Below the pieces are notes generated by a model. It was not told the origin of the DNA. It searched no databases and saw only the letters and a program-made list of their open reading frames with translations. A stretch of DNA of 64,000 nucleotides from Lucinisca nassula (taxonomy: Eukaryota; Mollusca; Bivalvia; Lucinida; Lucinidae), in NCBI GenBank assembly GCA_963580285.1, contig OY757023.1:93211108-93275107 (forward strand), given 5' to 3'. The position numbers and the translations under genes were made by a program. Positions 1,247-60,780 of the stretch are shown here, in pieces. Each line of letters begins with the position of its first letter. The first letter of the stretch is position 1.

Positions 1247-1815
1247 ATATCCGAAGATCAAAATTAATTACATGTAAGTTACACAGGAATGGAACGGGAA
1301 ATTTCTTCACCTCGAATTAAAGATTCTCGTTGGCGTTCTGTTGAACTTAAAATAAGATGCTAACCTGAAAATTAAAAAGTACATCAAAGCTGGCCATCTT
1401 TTTCGTGACACCACATTAAATTTGTCAGCGTTAAATGTCTGCAAATACATGTATTCAAAAATACAAACTGGAGCAGACATTTAACACTGAATTGTAGCGA
1501 AAGTGGTGCTTACCATTTTTGCGGGTGTATATTATTTGTTTCACGATATTTATAGTACAAACCCAAAGCTTTCTGTGAACAGAGCATGGCAATGACAAAT
1601 AACGTCCCTATTTAATAATGTGTTACCGTTTCTTTTGCTGGTGGTTATACATAGAGCAAGCTTTATATAAATTAAATTCACATTGTCCTTTACTGTTCGA
1701 TAATAAAACAAGAAAATAATACGTGTGACGTCTGATTGAACCCCCAAAAACTGTGTTTAGTAGGATAACACCCCATGAAATGGGCCCCGTAAAGCGATTT
1801 TAGTACTTATCGCCT
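1247..1815. other. No gene recognised; small hairpin
   Basis: AT-rich sequence without a recognised gene. A hairpin is formed by GCGTTAAATGTCTGC (about 1428-1442) and GCAGACATTTAACAC (about 1473-1487). Short open frames here look like chance. Confidence 0.45.
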
Positions 1816-1817
1816 AT

Positions 1818-1881
1818 GCGAGCAGCGAAGGTTCAGGCGAGCCTGCGCATCCGCGCAGTCTCGCCAGAGCCTTCCCTGCTC
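1818..1881. repeat. Imperfect hairpin with GC-rich centre
   Basis: CGAGCAG and CTGCTCG enclose GGCGAG/CTCGCC and a TGCGCA..GCGCA core, giving an imperfect dyad of about 64 nt. A hairpin with the same TGCGCATCCGCGCA-type core lies at 5337-5401, so this is probably a dispersed foldback repeat. Confidence 0.55.
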
Positions 1882-2218
1882 GCTCATACAAGCAGTGAAT
1901 CAAGAAGAACCTTCAGACAGAAAGCCATATCCCTGGCCCCTCTGAATGGCTGGGCATGCAGAGTTAAAATTTGTCATGACGGAATGCTCGAAGACACAAA
2001 TTTGCTTGGCGGGGCTCAAATGAAGTAACACGTCAGTGGTTTGAACACGGATATCTCGTTCACAATGGCTGATTCCAAGTAGCTCATCATACATGTCTAA
2101 TTTGCTCTTGCTGATTCGAAATCTTTCTATTGCTCCCAAAGTTCTCTATTCACCATATTTGCATTATTTGATGGCTCCAAGCTTGCACATTGTCAATATT
2201 GGACAAACAGGTAACCGG

Positions 2219-2251
2219 GTGTGTGTGTGTGTGTGGGGGGGGGGGGGGTCT
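2219..2251. repeat. (GT)n followed by a poly-G run
   Basis: A GT dinucleotide tract runs directly into an uninterrupted G run. This is a simple repeat only. Confidence 0.9.
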
Positions 2252-2321
2252 GGTTACCTGTTTTTCCAACACTGATATTCTTCAGACAAGGAACCAGCAG
2301 ACAATGCAAATAAGGTGAATG

Positions 2322-2550
2322 TTGAGGGGAATGGGAATACCTGGCAGATTGTTCCGCCATTTTTCAAAGGGAGACAACTTTCAGGACTTCCTCATCGCTT
2401 TTCTATACTGAAAAAGGGGTCTACTCTTGGAGGAAAGAGTTTGCTCCTCAGGAGCAAATTCGTTCCTGTAAGAGTTGACCCCTATTGACCTGGGAGACAA
2501 AATACTTTCGTAGAAGTTGCCTCCCCCGAATGTGTATCCGCCCCGCTTAA
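2322..2550 (+). mobile_element. Foldback element, family G, diverged copy
   Basis: It starts GAGGGGAATGGGAATACCTGG and contains the family hairpin around GGAGCAAATTC and its inverse TTTGCTCC (2428-2465). It ends near CCGCCCCGCTTAA. The complete relative at 5893-6134 has TTAA at both ends. Here only the right TTAA is intact. Confidence 0.65.
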
Positions 2551-2935
2551 CATATTTAGGATCATTTAGGAAGATTTTGTTTTCTATTTTATCTTGAAAA
2601 TGTATATTATGCGTATACATTGGTCGACTTCACCTGGAGCCAGTTGCTAGCTTTCGCTACTTTGGTTGCTGTTCCATTTTCCTGTATCACGCCTACGGCA
2701 AGGGTCAAAGTTAGGCAAATCTATAAACAGCCAATAAAAATTAAATTAAAGAGTCGTCATGAGTGCGCATGCGTGGAAAACCGGACTAACCGTTCCTCAA
2801 GGTATGGTACCATTGGTTTTATTGACATGCGCAGAGACTGAACGCATGACCTGCCAATAGTACTAGCCGTCTATGCTCAGCTGATACCTTCGTTGTCATT
2901 TGACTTACTGTGGTTCGAGATGAAGTCAGCCATTA
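2551..2935. other. No gene recognised
   Basis: Unassigned sequence. A TGCGCATGCG palindrome at about 2764-2773 resembles an NRF1 site and ACATGCGCAG follows near 2826, but no transcript structure supports a promoter. Confidence 0.4.
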
Positions 2936-2966
2936 TAATTGCCTCGATTAGGCAATTCTAATGAGT
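2936..2966. repeat. Solo remnant of the hairpin-core module
   Basis: TAATTGCCTCGATTAGGCAATT followed by CTAATGAGTGCAC is a diverged copy of the CCTCGATGAGG hairpin core seen in families P and Q. The flanking arms are mostly missing. The right flank ACAGCAG agrees best with the pogo-like family (15672-16020). Confidence 0.55.
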
Positions 2967-2972
2967 GCACAG

Positions 2973-3048
2973 CAGCCCCTGTGGTATAGTGGTTACGCTG
3001 CTCGACTTGTAAACCAGGGTTGTAGGATCGATCCCGGGCTTCTCCAGA
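2973..3048 (+). repeat. tRNA-like SINE head (Thr-UGU-like loop)
   Basis: The segment has an A box (TGGTATAGTGGTTA), a seven-base loop CTTGTAA giving a UGU anticodon, and a T-loop region GATCGATCCC. The acceptor ends GCCCCTG and TTCTCCA pair poorly. It is more likely a SINE head or tRNA pseudogene than a functional tRNA gene. About 70 nt of unassigned body follows. Confidence 0.55.
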
Positions 3049-3229
3049 CTTTCGGATGAGTCTAAGAACGAGTTTAACAGCCGTGAATAAACGAGCCGTC
3101 GGTGTTTCTACTTTGATCAGCTATGGGGATATCATGTTGCTCATACCGGTTCACGCGACGTCAAATGATTATTCAGTGGCGTCAGAAACACCATTATAAT
3201 GAGACGACTGTGACGTCTAAAAATACCTC

Positions 3230-4258: not shown

Positions 4259-4367
4259 TCGACCGTGTTGCTCGGTAGCTCAGTCGGTAGAGTGTTCGCA
4301 CGGTAGAGAAGCCCTGGGTTCGAGTCCCGGTTGAGCCATGTTCTTTTTCCACCCTTGTGACATTTTT
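4259..4367 (+). repeat. Left tRNA-like arm of a convergent pair
   Basis: GTCGACCGTGT is followed by a tRNA-like segment: A box TAGCTCAGTCGGTAGAG, B box GGTTCGAGTCCC, acceptor-like GCTCGG and TTGAGCC. Then comes TTCTTTTTCCACCCTTGTGA. The whole ~110 bp is repeated inverted at 5146-5250. It ends where the minisatellite element at 4368 begins. The anticodon arm is short and malformed, so a working tRNA is unlikely. Confidence 0.75.
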
Positions 4368-5145: not shown

Positions 5146-5250
5146 GTCACAGGGGTGGAAAAAGAACATGGCTCAACCGGGACTCGAACCCAGGGCTTCT
5201 CTACCGTCCGAACATGCTTCCGACTGAGCTACCGAGCCACACGGTCGACC
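5146..5250 (-). repeat. Right tRNA-like arm of the convergent pair
   Basis: The reverse complement repeats the arm at 4259-4367, including the tRNA-like part, the TTCTTTTTCCACCCCTGTGA stretch and the outer GTCGACCGTGT. Because sequence upstream of the tRNA-like head is also shared, an inverted duplication or a TIR element explains the pair better than two independent SINE insertions. Confidence 0.75.
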
Positions 5251-10559: not shown

Positions 10560-11110
10560 GCCTGTCCAGCACAATAAAATAGAAGTGAAGGCAATAATCA
10601 GGAATCGATACAATTAACCCACAGCTCCCATCAGAGACACCAAAGGGACAGAAATACATACATGAAACAACTAGACCCTAATGGAAACATCAATACCAGA
10701 AAGCCAAAAGGACAGTTACTTTCCCGCAGAATGGCTAGTTGGTTATTCAAAACAAAATAATATAAGCGATATACACTCTTAATATCAAGCCATAACAAAA
10801 ATAAACCATGGTAGAAGAACCGCATTGGAACGGTCAATTAAACAATTTAAATCGATTTTACGTGTCCACAATCCTCGCCCCTTACTTCCGTCGCGATTTA
10901 GACATATAATTTGTTCAGCGCGCATGGCCTCCTAACTCATCAGTGCAACATCTTCGTGAACACAAAAATCAAACAAACACAGAGATGAAACAACGGTGAG
11001 GACTCGACAGCAAGAAACCACTGAAATGCTGGAGCAAAAGAAAACCAACAAGTAGACTCCAATGGGCCCGACCAGAGATAGAGCATCAGGCACTGAGCAG
11101 CATTACATAA
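10560..11110 (-). mobile_element. Penelope-like element 3' region
   Basis: This ~550-bp non-coding region follows the minus-strand ORF directly. It is colinear with 51386-51955, 22435-22998 and 34547-34930. Shared blocks include GGATTGTGGACACGTAAAA, CTAATGGAAACATCAATACC (read on +) and AGGAATCGATACAATTAACC. Confidence 0.8.
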
Positions 11111-12311
11111 AATTAGATACTCTCTAATTCTCAGTTAGCCTTTACGCTGGAACCGTCATAGAATCTGAGGCCTGAACCACCGGCGTGCAATTAAAGAGGG
11201 AAGCATAGTTGTCAACAGTGATTGGGTTAACTACCATACATGCAGTCAGCCGTATAACATTTATGTTGTACCCTATCTTTTTATATCGAATAATGATTTT
11301 ACGAAATTGGGTGCTGAAGTCACTGCATTTATATATTTTTCTAAATTTGTATAGTAAGTCACCAAAAAAATTCGGAATGTGATAGACCTTGTCACTGAAG
11401 AGATTTAAGTCCAACATTAAATTTTGAAATTAAATCGGAATGACGTATATAAAATTTTTAAAATGCTTTGCGTAGTTTATGATATAAGAAGTTTAGCAGT
11501 TAACAAATTATTACGGGTTTGAAGTCAGTTACTTGACTAGACACTCTGGCAAAACGAATTAATTGCGAAATATAAAGTTAACGCCATAGGTTGGTGCACG
11601 AGGAACATCACCATCCAAGAAAGGAAAATTTACAATCTTAAAATCAAAATCATCGCGTTTCTCATAGATTTTGCAAGAAACAAACCCATCTGCAGTAGAC
11701 AGATATAAATCCAAAAACGGGGGCTCGGTATCAGAAGAATTTGCTTTATTTAACTGAAGTTCCTGGGGATAAATTTGACTGATCAAACCATCGAAATAGG
11801 ATTGTCAATATTTAGTAAATCATCCAAATATCTAGGAGTCGAGCTAAAGGCTTTAATGATTTCAGATTGGTTTTCAACGGGAAGGGACATCATGAAGTCT
11901 CTTTCATAACAAAACAAGAACAGATCAACCACAATGGGTGCGCAATTCGTACCCATCGGAATACCCACAATTTGTCTGAATAACTTAGTACCAAATTTTA
12001 TGTAAATATTGTCAGGTAGAAAGGTGAGAGCTTCACACACTTTCTGACATGACCATAAAGTATAACTTTTATGCTCTTCAGAAGTGAAAAAAGCATTTCT
12101 TACATTACACGCAAGATACAGGGAGTCTACCCCATGAAATGTCAATTCAATTAAATCATTAAGTTTTTCTTTTGTAAGAGTATGAGGAAGTGTAGTGTAA
12201 AGGGTGGAAAAATCATAAGTAGACAGACTTGAAGCACGAAAACCCGTCTGGATTTCAATTTATTTAAACTCACGTTAGAATGTTTTATACTAACAAATTT
12301 CTACCTGATCT

Positions 12312-12645
12312 TTCAAAAACCCCATATTTTCCAGTTCTGTGGTGTAATCCTTGCTCCCAAAGGATAACCCTTTCTAGAACATATTTGACGTCACTACAGC
12401 TGGTGTCTGAGAATGTCTGGCGGCCGTAAAAAGTCTCTCTGCCCTACATCATAGTGTACTTTATATTATCTTGTCCTTTGGGATCATTGATTCCATTGTG
12501 GAATTTTGGAAAAAAAAATGAGGGTCACTGATGAGGCCTAAATGGCCGAAACTAGCTAGTTTGGCACAGAAAATTTGAAACTCCATATTCTCCAGTTCTG
12601 TGGCGTAGTCCTTGCTTCCAAAGGATAACCCTTTCTAGAACATAT
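12312..12645 (+). mobile_element. Retrozyme-like insert with 261-bp period
   Basis: The sequence from CCATATTTTCCAGTTCTGTG through TAACCCTTTCTAGAACATAT (12312-12384) recurs at 12574-12645, so the insert is about 1.3 units of a 261-bp repeat. One hammerhead core lies just before the second copy. It interrupts the reverse transcriptase between ..IRYCDR and ERSGRN. Animal retrozymes are short tandem units with type I hammerheads, reported in bivalves among other animals. This fits that plan in opposite orientation to the Penelope ORF. No target duplication is clear. Confidence 0.7.
12522..12567 (+). ncRNA. Hammerhead ribozyme core (type I-like)
   Basis: CTGATGA (12528-12534) is followed by stem II GGCC-TAAAT-GGCC (12535-12547), then GAAA (12548-12551). 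A very short stem III follows: A12551 pairs T12560 and C12552 pairs G12559, with a further T-A pair. The predicted cleavage site is after T12561 (GTT). Stem I pairs GGTCA (12523-12527) with TGGCA (12562-12566) by A-T, C-G, T-G and G-C, with one mismatch further out. All invariant core bases are present. Self-cleavage is inferred, not shown. Confidence 0.8.
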
Positions 12646-13061
12646 CTGTCGCAATATCTAATCACTTGTTTTTGATGGCAGTAAAACATGAAGTTAATAA
12701 TTTGGAGAGTTCAGTGGTGGTACAAGTGCTTGTATTTGCGATAAACCGTGCTTTGTACGGTCTTTTATGAAGTTTAGGCAACCAATATAACGTTGGAAGA
12801 TTGTCTTGGCCTTCTGTAGCACATACAGCACACTGGGTTACTGAGTGGCAAATGTGGTAATCAACTAAAGCCGTCTCTACAGCCAAAGGCTGCAGTTCAT
12901 AGGCCTTAGTACCACCAAGTTCTTGCTGAAGAGTGTTATCATAGTGTTAACTTGTTAACCCTTCTCTTGCTGAATATTCATTTAAGGCACACCCATTTCT
13001 GTCTATCAACCAATCAGATTACTTGATGTAATTTATTGCTACAAATTCATACACTGAATGC

Positions 13062-13127
13062 CAAACAGTGTAGATCCTGATCAGATGGCTTCTGAAGAAG
13101 CCATCTGATCTGGATCTACACTGTTTG
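13062..13127. repeat. AAACAGTG foldback hairpin
   Basis: CAAACAGTGTAGATCCTGAT and CAGATGGCTTC are matched inverted by GAAGCCATCTG and TGGATCTACACTGTTTG, a 66-nt near-perfect dyad. Relatives occur at about 26978, 48305, 48810 and 61460. Confidence 0.85.
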
Positions 13128-20447: not shown

Positions 20448-20606
20448 GCATTTACTCAGCTGTTAAAAATCTAAGGTTTCTACAGAGTATACTGTTCACA
20501 CATACGAATGCAAACAGTGTAGATCCAGATAAGATGCCGCAACATAAGTCATCTCATCCATAATGATTGCCATTCTGTTACTGATTTACATTGACCAAAA
20601 ACCCGA

Positions 20607-26915: not shown

Positions 26916-26977
26916 CCGCGTTATTTACATCTTAGAGAATTATCTGTAGAATCTGGACTGCAATCATGTGTTGGGTT

Positions 26978-27041
26978 TTGCAAACAGTGTATACCCATAT
27001 CAGAACGCGGTGTCTGTTCAGGGTCTACACTGTTTGCTTAG
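26978..27041. repeat. AAACAGTG foldback hairpin, diverged
   Basis: TGCAAACAGTGTATACCC and GGGTCTACACTGTTTGC enclose CAGAACGCGGTGTCTG. It belongs to the same family as 13062-13127. Confidence 0.75.
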
Positions 27042-45239: not shown

Positions 45240-45540
45240 GTTTTCAGAACTTATTTGTCTTTACTGCAGCTTGTCACGGTTGTGCCGTGTGGCTGTGGTA
45301 AAAAGTCTCCCCGTACAACATCATAGTGCAGATTATATTTTCCGGCCCTTTGGAATGATCGAGTTCATTTAGAATCAGTTTAAAAAATATAGTTCTGCTT
45401 AAGCCGGTGCTAGATGGCGTGGCCGGTGTTGCACATTTCAGTACTGGTCATGAACAGACGCAATAAAACCGACTCTGCTATTTTCGTTTATTTGGTGTAT
45501 TCTTTGCTTCCAAGGGATCAAACTATTCAGAACTTCTTTC
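45240..45540 (+). repeat. Diverged relative of the retrozyme unit, no hammerhead seen
   Basis: CAGAACTTATTTGTCTTTAC, TAAAAAGTCTCCCCG and CAACATCATAGTGCAGA align with 12377-12470. TTCTTTGCTTCCAAGGGATC and CAGAACTT at about 45500-45535 align with the start of the next unit. The CTGATGA...GAAA core is not present. The period is about 283 bp. Confidence 0.5.
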
Positions 45541-49904: not shown

Positions 49905-50339
49905 TTTTTCTTTTTGTTTGACTGTTTCTTTCAGCTGTCCAGTAGCGTAGCCAGAACAGAAATATTATTACGCACAACAAGGAAAATCTTCGTAAAAATC
50001 ACCTTTCTCCTAGATGGGGCTACTCTAAATGGAAAGATTTGGCTCCCAATCGGAGCAACTTCATTCCATTAAAAGTAAACCTTACAAAATATAAAGGAAA
50101 ATGCTGTTGTTATTTAACGCGTAATATGCGTTATGGGTGCTACGCCTATATATGCTGTCACAATTCCGATTTATAATAGGCCCCGTTTATAACTTGACCC
50201 TTTCTTACAGAATTCAATAACGGGCACTCCCGCACCGACCTAGAAAACAGAGACCACCAGATGTTTCCACTGTTTGATTTGATACTACAGTCAGGATCAA
50301 AATGATGGACTTAAAGGTTTTGACTAGTCATCCTCAAAC
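49905..50339. other. No gene recognised
   Basis: Unassigned sequence before the Penelope-like fragment. Confidence 0.35.
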
Positions 50340-51385
50340 ACAAACATTACGAAATCACGCCTATACAAACGCAGAGAAGATTCTCTCAATCTTGCATGTA
50401 ATGTCAGAAATGCATTTTTCACTTCTAAAGAGCATAAGAATTATACACTTTGGTCATGTCAGAAAGTGTGTGATGCCCTCCCCTTTCTACTTGACAATAT
50501 TTATATTAGATTCGGCACTAAGTTATTTAGACAAATAGTGGGTATTCCGTTGGGTACGAATTGTGCACCTCTTGTGGCTGATCTGTTCTTGTTTTGTTAT
50601 GAAAGAGACTTCATGTTGTCGCTTTCCATTGATAACCAATCTGAAATTATTGAAGCTTTTAGTTCTACTTCTAGATATTTAGATGATTTATTAAATATTG
50701 ACAATACTTACTTTGATGGTTTGATCAGTCAGATTTATCCCCTAGAACTTCAGTTAAACAAAGCAAATTCCTCTGATACCGAGACCCCGTTTTTGGATTT
50801 ACATTTATCTATTGTAGATGGATCTTTTTCTTGCAAAATTTATGATAAACGTGATGATTTTGATTTCGAGATTGTAAATTTTCCTTTTTTGGACGGTGAT
50901 GTTCCTCGTGCGACATCGTACGGGGTTTATTTTTCGCAGTTAATTCGATTCGCTAGAGTATCTAGTCATGTATCCGACTTCAAAACTCGTAATAAATTAT
51001 TAACCGCTTAACTTTTAATCAGGGGTATCGGTATCAAAAACTACGTAAAGCCTTTACTAATTTTTATAGACGTCATTCTGATTTTGTTTCAAAATTCAAT
51101 GTTGGACTTAAAACACTTCTGCAACATGGCCTATCGGAACCCGAATTCTATGGTGACTTAGTATATAAATTTAGAAAAATACATGCCTGCAATGACTTTA
51201 GTACCTAATTTCGTAAAATCGTTCGTCGATATATAAAGATTGGATACAACATAAATGTTATAAAACAGACTGCATGCTTGGTGGTTAACCCAATCACGGT
51301 TGGCAACTTTGCTTCCATCTTTGATTGCCCACCGATGGGTCGGGCTTAAGATTATATGACGGTTCCAGCGTAAAAACATAAATGG
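50340..51385 (+). pseudogene. Penelope-like reverse transcriptase, second copy
   Basis: The open reading frame from about 50373 to 51011 carries LACNVRNAFF, the SCQKVCDALPF region, motif B GIPLGTNCAPLVADLFL, catalytic SRYLDDLLNI, and LQLNKANSSDTETPFLDLHL. It stops at TRNKLLTA. The family's C-terminal segment continues in another frame (GLKTLLQHGLSEPEFYG, then NVIKQTACLVVNPITVG) to about 51345. The N-terminal half, including motif A, is missing, so it is 5'-truncated. It is better preserved than the copy at 11-13 kb. Confidence 0.9.
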
Positions 51386-51955
51386 AATTTTATTTTATTT
51401 TAGTATTCTTTATGTTGGTTGGCGCCTGATGCTCCGTCTTTGGTCGGGCCCCTCGGAGTCTAACTGTTGGTTTTCTTTTGCTCCAGCAATTCTGTTGTTG
51501 TATGCTTTCGAGTCCTCAAACTTGTTTCATCTCTGTAGTTTTTTTATTTGTATGTTCTCGGAGATGTTACACTGATGGGTTAGGAAGCCTTCATGCGGAC
51601 TAAACAAAATCAGTGTATACCGCGACAGAGGTAAGGGCGAGGATTATGACCATGTAAAATCGATATAAGCCCCCAGTGGAATTCTATCCACTGATCGTTC
51701 CAAGGCGGTTCTTCTGTGGCGGTTTATTTATGTTGCTGTTTGTTAGTTACTGTGTGTATCATTTGTGTCTTTTTATTTTGGATGGCCATTTGGCCATTTT
51801 GTGGGAAAGTAACTGTCCTTATGGCCTTCCTTTGTTTAGGCTTCCATTATGGTCTGGTCGCTTCATGTTTGTGTTTCTTACCCTTTGATGTCTTTGATGG
51901 TTAGGGTAAGTTAATTGTATCGATTCCTGATCTTTGTTTTATTTATACTTTGTAA
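51386..51955 (+). mobile_element. Penelope-like 3' region attached to its ORF
   Basis: It continues directly from the C-terminal coding part. TTGGTTGGCGCCTGATGC, GAGGATTATGACCATGTAAA, CGTTCCAAGGCGGTTCTTC and AATTGTATCGATTCCTGATC define the family 3' end and identify the orphan tails elsewhere in the window. Confidence 0.88.
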
Positions 51956-52145: not shown

Positions 52146-53401
52146 TAAGAAAACCCATCTTGCTAATCCCAAGAATATCGACCAAATCAGCATGACCTAA
52201 ACCAACATGAAAATATGTAGGACTGTTACAAATGCTCGATTCAATCTTTTGATCTATAGTGTAGATTTTTGGGGGACCCGACCGCAGAACTTCATCAGTG
52301 CTCGTATTGCCTCGCGACAATTTTAATATGAAGGTGTTTGCTTCATTAAGGTCACTGACCAGACTGAAGTATGCAGCATTTTTATCTTTATTTTTTTTTT
52401 TTGTAAATGTGGCAAAAGACATGGGATCAGGGGGGAAACAGTATAAACCTGATTTTTCAGACCACCCCAGTATAAAAACATCAAAGAAAATTTACCAAAA
52501 CATTTACCACATTTTTCTTTCAAACCGGTCGACCAAAATGAAGTAAGCAAATTATATCCAAATTAAATTTTAAAAAAGCCACTGGAGTGGATAATATTTC
52601 GGCAAAAATTTTGAAAGCTTGTGGACCTGCGATAAGTCATACTGTTTCAAATCTGATAAACACAGCTTTTGCAGTGTCAAACTTTCCTCCTAGTCTGAAG
52701 GTTGGCCAGGTGTTACCCTTGCATAAAAAGAAGGATCCATTGGATAATGGACCTGTCAGTATCCTGAAAACAACATCCAAAATTTATGAGAGGGCGATGC
52801 ATGACCAACTGGCAGAATACTTTGAGGAAGTGTTTAACCCCTTCCTAGCTGCGTTTAGGAAGGGATTTGGATGTCAGACGACCCTGCTACGTCTCCTTGA
52901 AGACTGGAAGAGGGTCGTGGACAATCATGAGTGTGTAGCTGCCATTCTCATGGATTTCTCGATGGCCTTCGACTGTCTTCCGAATGAGTTACTGAAAGCT
53001 AAGCTTCTGGCTTATGGTCTGTCTGAAGATGCAGTGACTCTGCTGGAGAGTTACCTGAGTGACAGGCGGCAAAGGGTCAAGATAGGCTCTCATACTAGCA
53101 GCTGGGAAAAACTTTTTAAAGGTGTCCCACAAGGATCTATTTTAGGGCCTCTAATTTTTAACATTTTTATCAATGACATATTTTACATCATCAAACATGG
53201 TACCCTTTATAACTATGCAGATGACAACACACTGTCTTCCATTCATTAATGTCTTAACAGTTTAAAGGAAATTCTACTAATTGAATGGTTTTCAGAAAAT
53301 TTTATGAAAGCAAATCCGGAAAAATTTCAAGCCATCTGCATAGGTCAAAAACACATGGTGCTATATCCTTTTTCCACTTAAATGATACCATCATTAAATT
53401 A

Positions 53402-60489: not shown

Positions 60490-60780
60490 CTTTGTTGATG
60501 AAGTACGGGGAACCCCTTTACAGGCTCCACAACTACACTTAACATCGGCTGTGGCAAATACATGTAAATGCATAAATTTTTGAGAATGAAGCTGAAAAAA
60601 TGCGACCAGAACTGGACTCGAACTAGCGATCTCTTGCTAAAAGGGCAAGTGCTCCACCGACTGAGCTATCCGGCCGCTGATAACATTTTTTCAACTAGTA
60701 ATAAACAGCGCTGTTTATGAAGTACGGGGAACCCTTTTACAGGATCCACAACTGCACTTAGCACAGGCTGTTGCCACCCT
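60490..60780. repeat. ~70-bp direct repeats flanking a tRNA-like sequence
   Basis: GAAGTACGGGGAACCCCTTT with CCACAACTACACTTAACATC (60500-60560) and GAAGTACGGGGAACCCTTTT with CCACAACTGCACTTAGCAC (60718-60775) are direct repeats on both sides of the tRNA-like element. Confidence 0.75.
60604..60675 (-). tRNA. tRNA-Lys(UUU)-like sequence, probably a pseudogene
   Basis: On the minus strand: acceptor GGCCGGA pairs with TCTGGTC (with G-T pairs); D arm TAGCTCAGTCGGTGGAGC; anticodon arm CTTGC-CCTTTTA-GCAAG with UUU anticodon; T loop TTCGAGT with one stem mismatch. The fold is nearly complete. The T-stem mismatch and the repeat context suggest a tRNA pseudogene or SINE head, but a functional gene is not excluded. 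Confidence 0.55.

Follow-up and report, generated by a model that had tools for sequence, protein, structure and literature searches.

How small non-coding RNAs with a hammerhead ribozyme spread in animal genomes is an open question, and it is raised by a locus in a 64-kb stretch of Lucinisca nassula DNA (the window, here meaning the whole stretch that was analysed), in which a hammerhead-bearing repeat lies inside the reverse transcriptase (RT) gene of a larger retroelement (Table 1). An earlier note, made from the window's letters, had proposed a direct repeat with a period of 261 bp and a 1.3-unit retrozyme insertion. The repeat was borne out by a direct-repeat search (12317-12390 against 12578-12651, 91% identical, spacing 261), and alignment to the family consensus refined its two copies to 66 bp each, identical at 61/66 positions within these consensus-derived boundaries. 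At 1.26 units, the insertion begins and ends with the same 66-bp stretch of the unit, and we read this overlap as the trace of more than one turn round the unit. The description as a retrozyme-like unit stands, with the length being only one outcome of a fixed 3' end and a variable 5' end, the latter falling here at consensus position 195; the 3' end lies at the family's fixed site and would mark the start of reverse transcription. The insertion shares 92.7% identity with the 260-bp family majority sequence, has no target duplication and lacks about 4 target bases. Its antisense position within the RT gene was confirmed by aligning the flanks to retroelement locus L070 (window 12946 to 12649 matching L070 1012-1310, and 12320 to 10576 matching 1315-3084), the RT reading frame being split because the insertion interrupts the host copy. 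A plasmid search using the unit sequence gave no match. This anatomy fits the metazoan non-LTR retrozymes, a published kind, circles and cleavage being putative here. In our preferred account the locus would be a dead-end copy, left by a retroelement of the metazoan retrozyme type that carries a hammerhead and is non-autonomous.

Table 1. Features of the retrozyme insertion, its host retroelement and related copies in the window.
Feature	Position	Strand	Remarks
Retrozyme insertion	12319..12645	+	327 bp = 1.26 units of the 260/261-bp repeat
Terminal direct repeat, first 66-bp copy	12319..12384	+	alignment to family consensus
Terminal direct repeat, second 66-bp copy	12580..12645	+	end = fixed 3' boundary
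Shared motif, 12-kb copy	12416..12439	+	two mismatches to TGTGGCGGCCGTAAAAAGTCTCCC
Hammerhead, type I layout, helix I open	12519..12572	+	geometry read from sequence; predicted cut after 12561
Helix I	12522-12527/12562-12567	+	6 positions, one G.A mismatch
Core CTGATGA	12528-12534	+	
Helix II	12535-12538/12544-12547	+	GGCC-TAAAT-GGCC
GAA	12548-12550	+	in GAAA after helix II
Helix III	12551-12553/12558-12560	+	3 bp, palindromic AGCT loop
Host retroelement, downstream part (RT gene remains and 3' end)	10576..12320	-	85.1% to L070
Host retroelement, upstream part, 5'-truncated	12649..12946	-	82.6% to L070
279-bp-family insertion	45243..45540	+	about 1.05 units, without recognisable hammerhead core
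Shared motif, 279-bp-family copy	45288..45311	+	three mismatches
Second copy of the same retroelement	50328..51952	+	RT frame 50328-51008; ends at same fixed 3' site (L042)

All elements of the hammerhead that had been claimed, together with the predicted cut, were found, and the window copy has a complete core; scanning the window with a loose pattern gave two matches, with helices (judged by eye) only at the one in Table 1. Relative to the family majority this copy carries GUU instead of GUC at the cut and has lost one helix I pair, so that it may cut slowly, and with its single hammerhead its transcript alone could probably release no unit-length RNA or circle; at least two strictly intact cores were present in 13/39 arrays of the 260-bp family. 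The covariance-model check that had been proposed came out negative, all Rfam hammerheads staying below their gathering scores in the window and only Hammerhead_HH9 leaving a trace there (16.3 bits, gathering score 52, E 1.4). Nine loci gave no Rfam hammerhead at E up to 1, and the best score in five loci was 28.0 of 48.5 bits for RF00008 (E 0.022). Such sub-gathering scores fit a short helix III. Minimum-free-energy folding of the 68 nt from the window did not give a hammerhead. The pattern CTGATGAGN{10,13}CGAAACTANNTAGT was found at 52,191 exact matches in the 2.93 Gb genome and its reversed control at 0, although copies of one repeat are not independent matches. It is known in two families, with repeat units of 260 and 383 bp. 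Their cores are identical, but from the 260-bp to the 383-bp family C-G becomes U-A in helix II and U.G becomes U-A in helix I, and the helix III loop, palindromic in both, reads AGCT in the former and ACGT in the latter.

Pairing was assessed in an alignment (A2) of 48 of the 105 hammerheads found, with one 260-bp-family sequence per locus and six of the 383-bp family, leaving out the 53-nt hammerhead of L038. Standard pairs occupied 93.0% of 559 pair cells (43 distinct sequences), compared with 11.4-43.6% when the partners were slid. Covariation was thin, with changes on both sides at one pair in three cells (20/500 shuffles reached as much), and the other covariation measures, reached more often by shuffles, did not stand out; covariation was rejected as proof of a hammerhead, the sequences having changed too little. 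The score of the window copy with our R1 hammerhead model (80.3 bits) was likewise rejected as independent support, since R1 was built from an alignment with this copy in row 1. With the abundance of the pattern and its pairing set against sub-gathering Rfam scores and thin covariation, we regard self-cleavage as likely rather than demonstrated.

Further genomic copies with the same unit and core, for which a search had been suggested, are plentiful: in addition to the pattern matches, a search with the 260/261-bp unit gave 54 matches (40 of 4,937 candidates were scored), dispersed over many contigs. Three related families were recognised, with units of 260, 383 and 279 bp that have only parts in common; G+C is 41.9% for the 260-bp consensus and 37.3% for the 383-bp unit. 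The suspected core-less, diverged relative at 45240-45540 does resemble the 12-kb repeat (79.5% over 45287-45369 and 75.8% over 45479-45539) and belongs to the third, 279-bp family, the boundaries of which are alignment ends only; no hammerhead core was recognised in this window copy, either by eye or by the R1 model. Among the copies of this family is one array with at least five units (G000:C4:16215248-16216654). Units within an array were nearest neighbours of each other in 23/49 cases, against 1.2 expected; the units of one array share variants. The circular folds of the three units exceeded shuffles in stability only slightly (z -1.97, -1.37 and -2.55, the 383-bp unit having been entered with one base doubled), and fold stability was set aside as support. 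Elsewhere in the window, an inverted repeat of 32 bp, nearly perfect (97%) and with a gap of 2 bp, lies at 13062-13127; related pieces occur at 20509-20558, 26977-27036 and elsewhere, and its Rfam miRNA matches fell below the gathering scores. Three tRNA matches exceeded gathering, at 4269-4338 (+), 5169-5238 (-) and 60603-60675 (-); the first two, with low scores of 33.3 and 29.5 bits, could be repeats derived from tRNAs.

The ends of the copies were compared in 39 arrays of the 260-bp family (41 loci minus L003, which is the same place as L009, and L019, the inverted twin of L020). As these are the best-scoring matches to a 361-bp query, short insertions are under-sampled. The 3' end was found 83-96 nt past the predicted cut in 37/39 arrays, with a circular concentration of 0.95, and the 5' ends of the same arrays were scattered (circular concentration 0.22, Rayleigh p about 0.16), with array lengths of 1.24 to 5.0 units. 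A single 3' site was also used in 9/10 arrays read of the 383-bp family. The tenth (L075:2000-2040, G000:C1 near 95.7 kb) ends in telomere-like CCCTAA repeats. An apparent second 3' end of this family at query position 87 was rejected as an alignment artefact from a T run in the query, direct reading of five ends at or near that position giving the usual site; a tally of this family's 3' ends that covered 40 of 42 was set aside as incomplete. The host retroelement itself ended at L070rc 3082-3094 in 32/34 stopping rows (3 of the 37 rows run on into another unit; the count takes in rows that reach at least position 3000, with more than one row from some loci). Fixed 3' ends with variable 5' ends are the pattern that internally initiated reverse transcription would be expected to leave.

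Partial 5' pieces were counted in two families. In the 279-bp family 28/33 counted pieces start at query 232-239, a cluster possibly blurred by about 30 nt by extra bases in the window copy, and in the 383-bp family 15/35 start at 334-337 (L075:1703-1706), away from the hammerhead cut. These tallies omit near-complete pieces (279-bp starts 12, 39 and 47; 383-bp starts 7 and 14), and some pieces share one array. Both families may therefore have preferred stops or defined 5' ends, and both ends of the 279-bp family may be defined. Target duplications at the insertions did not exceed those of shuffles (mean 2.87 against 2.49 +- 0.29), and so the junctions do not prove target-primed insertion.

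The most informative part of the locus, absent from the account of the earlier note, lies just past the 3' site, 3' of the putative start, where the retrozymes and the autonomous retroelement have the motif TGTGGCGGCNGTAAAANGTCTCCC in common. It starts 28 nt past the 3' end of the autonomous element, and its spacing is nearly the same in the retrozymes: a mode of 29 nt in the 260-bp family (20-33 nt in 37/39), 26-29 nt at four loci of the 383-bp family and about 31 nt in the 279-bp window copy. The 383-bp unit matches the retroelement over 39 nt at 94.9% (score 68, the best of 500 shuffles being 42) and the 260-bp unit matches the retroelement motif with a score of 41 (best of the shuffles 34). 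By BLAST of the three units against pieces of the retroelement, the motif stretch was the sole match (25, 39 and 38 nt for the 260-, 383- and 279-bp units). The 24-base motif had 34,176 exact matches in the genome, with 0 for its reversed control, and the retroelement's own 33-base variety had 1,065; retrozyme copies of the motif seem to outnumber the retroelement's own, the two counts being of unequal strictness. A predicted hairpin around the motif was weak (40/500 shuffles were as low) and was rejected as support. No mention of an initiation motif common to a retrozyme and its partner was met in the titles and abstract openings of open-licence papers, and as far as our searches go it appears to be new within the literature searched.

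The retroelement that carries this motif is the presumed autonomous partner. A genome search for its RT gave 150 scored matches among 81,728 candidates, many with open frames; the element is about 4.15 kb long, with some copies in tandem, 4150-4161 bp apart, and with motif copies 4150 bp apart. We consider it probably Penelope-like, from its tandem copies, from RT motifs that we take to resemble those of the Penelope class, and from a YVGQT..R..EHYRR-like stretch upstream of the RT, nearly invariant across an alignment of 16, which we presume to be akin to a GIY-YIG endonuclease. Of the claim that the insertion splits a minus-strand Penelope-like RT, the split is evident, and the class was not confirmed by profiles or structure models: the RT scored 12.6 bits against 29.6 with the RVT_1 profile, its structure model was poor (pLDDT 42), a PDB search found no match, the YVGQT stretch had no Pfam match and likewise a poor structure model, both models being too poor for a fold search, and searches of Pfam, NCBIfam and PDB left the element without a class. 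The R1 model, run unfiltered on 11 retroelement loci, found no hammerhead within element copies. Its top score there, 15.3 bits at L069:328-379, falls past the 3' end of that copy and is followed by 11.1 bits (L080, E 0.41) and then 9.9 bits and lower. As R1 finds no hammerhead in the readable host-element copies, the ribozyme belongs to the inserted unit.

Two further loci involve this element. At L052:1135-3474 (-) its RT stands in frame behind an Exo_endo_phos endonuclease domain in an open frame of 779 aa, perhaps because the retroelement inserted in a LINE-like element. At L055 (G000:C16:10758527 on), an array with three or more retrozyme units seems, by eye, to have been entered twice by 5'-truncated retroelement copies, one of these insertions having a 4-bp duplication, CCAA (also by eye); together with the window locus, this suggests that retrozyme and retroelement insert into each other.

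Units, hammerhead core, fixed 3' ends, the shared motif at its nearly equal distance and the insertion in the host copy can all be read directly in the DNA, and on these we base the proposal, to which we give a probability of about 80%, that the hammerhead retrozyme is copied by the enzyme of the 4.15-kb element through a shared initiation signal. From these features we infer four things, namely cleavage, RNA circles, protein binding and use of the partner enzyme. Multimeric transcripts of arrays with at least two hammerheads would cut themselves into unit-length RNAs, which would probably be ligated into circles. The protein of the 4.15-kb element would bind the 24-39-nt RNA motif, as the fixed 3' ends and the shared motif suggest, and reverse transcription would start internally, about 28 nt upstream of the motif, at a nick in the target DNA. 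With the same motif and the same start site, the enzyme would treat its own RNA and retrozyme RNA alike, and the retrozyme could be mobilised because its initiation signal is that of the autonomous element. Copying round a circle or along a multimer, for more than one unit and with variable stops, would yield the arrays of 1.24 to 5 units.

The strongest competitor dispenses with the circle: transcripts of tandem arrays, partly cleaved, would serve as linear templates copied from the internal start, and array length would follow from the length of the source transcript and from early stops. We think this unlikely, though well short of negligible, as most of the data fit a linear multimeric template too. 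It accounts equally for the fixed 3' ends and for the similarity of units within an array, and the published Penelope-like enzyme used linear RNA in vitro, with hammerhead mutants still inserting (PMC11167929). The clustering of partial 5' pieces in the 279- and 383-bp families speaks for it and counts against our account, since free drop-off on a circle predicts no clusters. On its own, however, it leaves unexplained the retention of the hammerhead in two families and the scattered 5' ends of the 260-bp family, and published animal retrozymes are abundant circles (PMC7229834).

A different origin of the motif would be descent, with the retrozymes being shrunken derivatives of the retroelement and the motif recognised by no protein. 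Retroelement-type motif copies repeated at 219- and 173-bp spacing (G000:C1:201363641-201364111 and G000:C2:22466593-22466971) are probably internally deleted retroelement mini-units and suggest that such derivatives arise, and a 2024 review proposes that retrozymes originated by reduction of Penelope-like elements (PMC11722881). Against this, BLAST similarity is limited to the motif stretch in all three units, and the motif keeps a nearly constant place relative to the 3' end in each family, so that we judge descent alone improbable. Still less credible is ordinary satellite DNA, growing by unequal crossing-over and moving at the DNA level with the hammerhead as a passenger: tandem arrays with variants common to one array are what it would give, but not short arrays scattered over many contigs that end at a single 3' site and begin at varying 5' positions, nor a nearly equal boundary-to-motif distance in three families with only partly alike units. 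Least credible is a chance hammerhead look-alike within a repeat, which the failure to reach the Rfam gathering score and the weak covariation would allow, but against which stand the excess of exact over reversed pattern matches, albeit with copies of one repeat that are not independent, and a second family that keeps the core despite changed helix letters.

If the retrozymes are copied through a shared signal, as we propose, the shared sequence at the putative copying start implicates, in one genome, a particular enzyme and a particular RNA signal, and with both named the question of the partner can be reduced to a simple biochemical test. The comparison of fixed 3' ends with the adjoining motif can be applied to any retrozyme-bearing genome. 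In a broader and tentative reading, which we hold somewhat less probable than its opposite, animal retrozymes in general would be ribozyme RNAs, probably circles, that bear the initiation signal of the local retrotransposon, one element serving at least three families here; the signal would perhaps be a hairpin with a GUAAAA loop that sets the fixed internal start. Were this true, the retrozymes of each animal would carry the signal of its own element, and partners could be found by the same comparison. Recruitment of a retrotransposon enzyme to a chosen start by a short RNA signal would also be relevant to studies of target-primed reverse transcription.

The published metazoan non-LTR retrozymes (Cervera and de la Pena 2020, PMC7229834) are expressed as circular RNAs. 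Like the units described here, they consist of short tandem repeats of 170-400 nt with a type I hammerhead and a G+C below 50%, occur as dimers to multimers in thousands of copies, and co-occur with Penelope-like elements; the salamander repeats share the short helix III and palindromic tetraloop. They differ in that their partner was left open and that their expression and cleavage were demonstrated, where our account is drawn from sequence. Their target duplications, where present, exceed 4 bp; here none rose above shuffles, and about 4 bases are missing at the window site. Penelope-like elements were named there as candidate partners because they co-occur, are tandem and bear hammerheads. 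Penelope-like elements and Terminons have minimal hammerheads (Cervera and de la Pena 2014; Lunse et al. 2017) that are likewise type I, tandem and weak in helix III, but these lie in the pseudo-LTR of the autonomous element itself, whereas here the ribozyme lies in separate small units. Plant LTR retrozymes are also non-autonomous and hammerhead-bearing, with a partner suggested by common end signals, and differ in their type III hammerheads, their LTRs and their Ty3-Gypsy partner (PMC7761336).

The closest mechanistic parallel is PAc, a Penelope-like Poseidon element of Anolis, for which internal initiation was obtained in vitro (Frangieh et al. 2024, PMC11167929). As proposed here, its RNA start is internal and not homologous to the cut DNA, and its genomic copies have fixed ends; it differs in bearing its own hammerhead, with none found by R1 in the 4.15-kb element. 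A similar spacing from cut to start (87 nt as the 260-bp mode, against 85-92 computed for PAc) was considered as a link and dropped because the spacing in the 383-bp family is 64-67 nt. PAc requires RNA downstream of its start (start at +111-118, minimum RNA to +172), that is, 54-61 nt past the start sites, with which a motif spanning about 28-52 nt beyond the putative start is compatible, without being proof. As to the partner, a 2024 review leaves LINEs or Penelope-like elements open (PMC11722881), and a 2020 review describes animal retrozymes as having no conserved motif from which the autonomous partner could be deduced (PMC7761336); unlike in that description, the retrozymes of this genome have, near the start of the insertion, a motif in common with an autonomous element.
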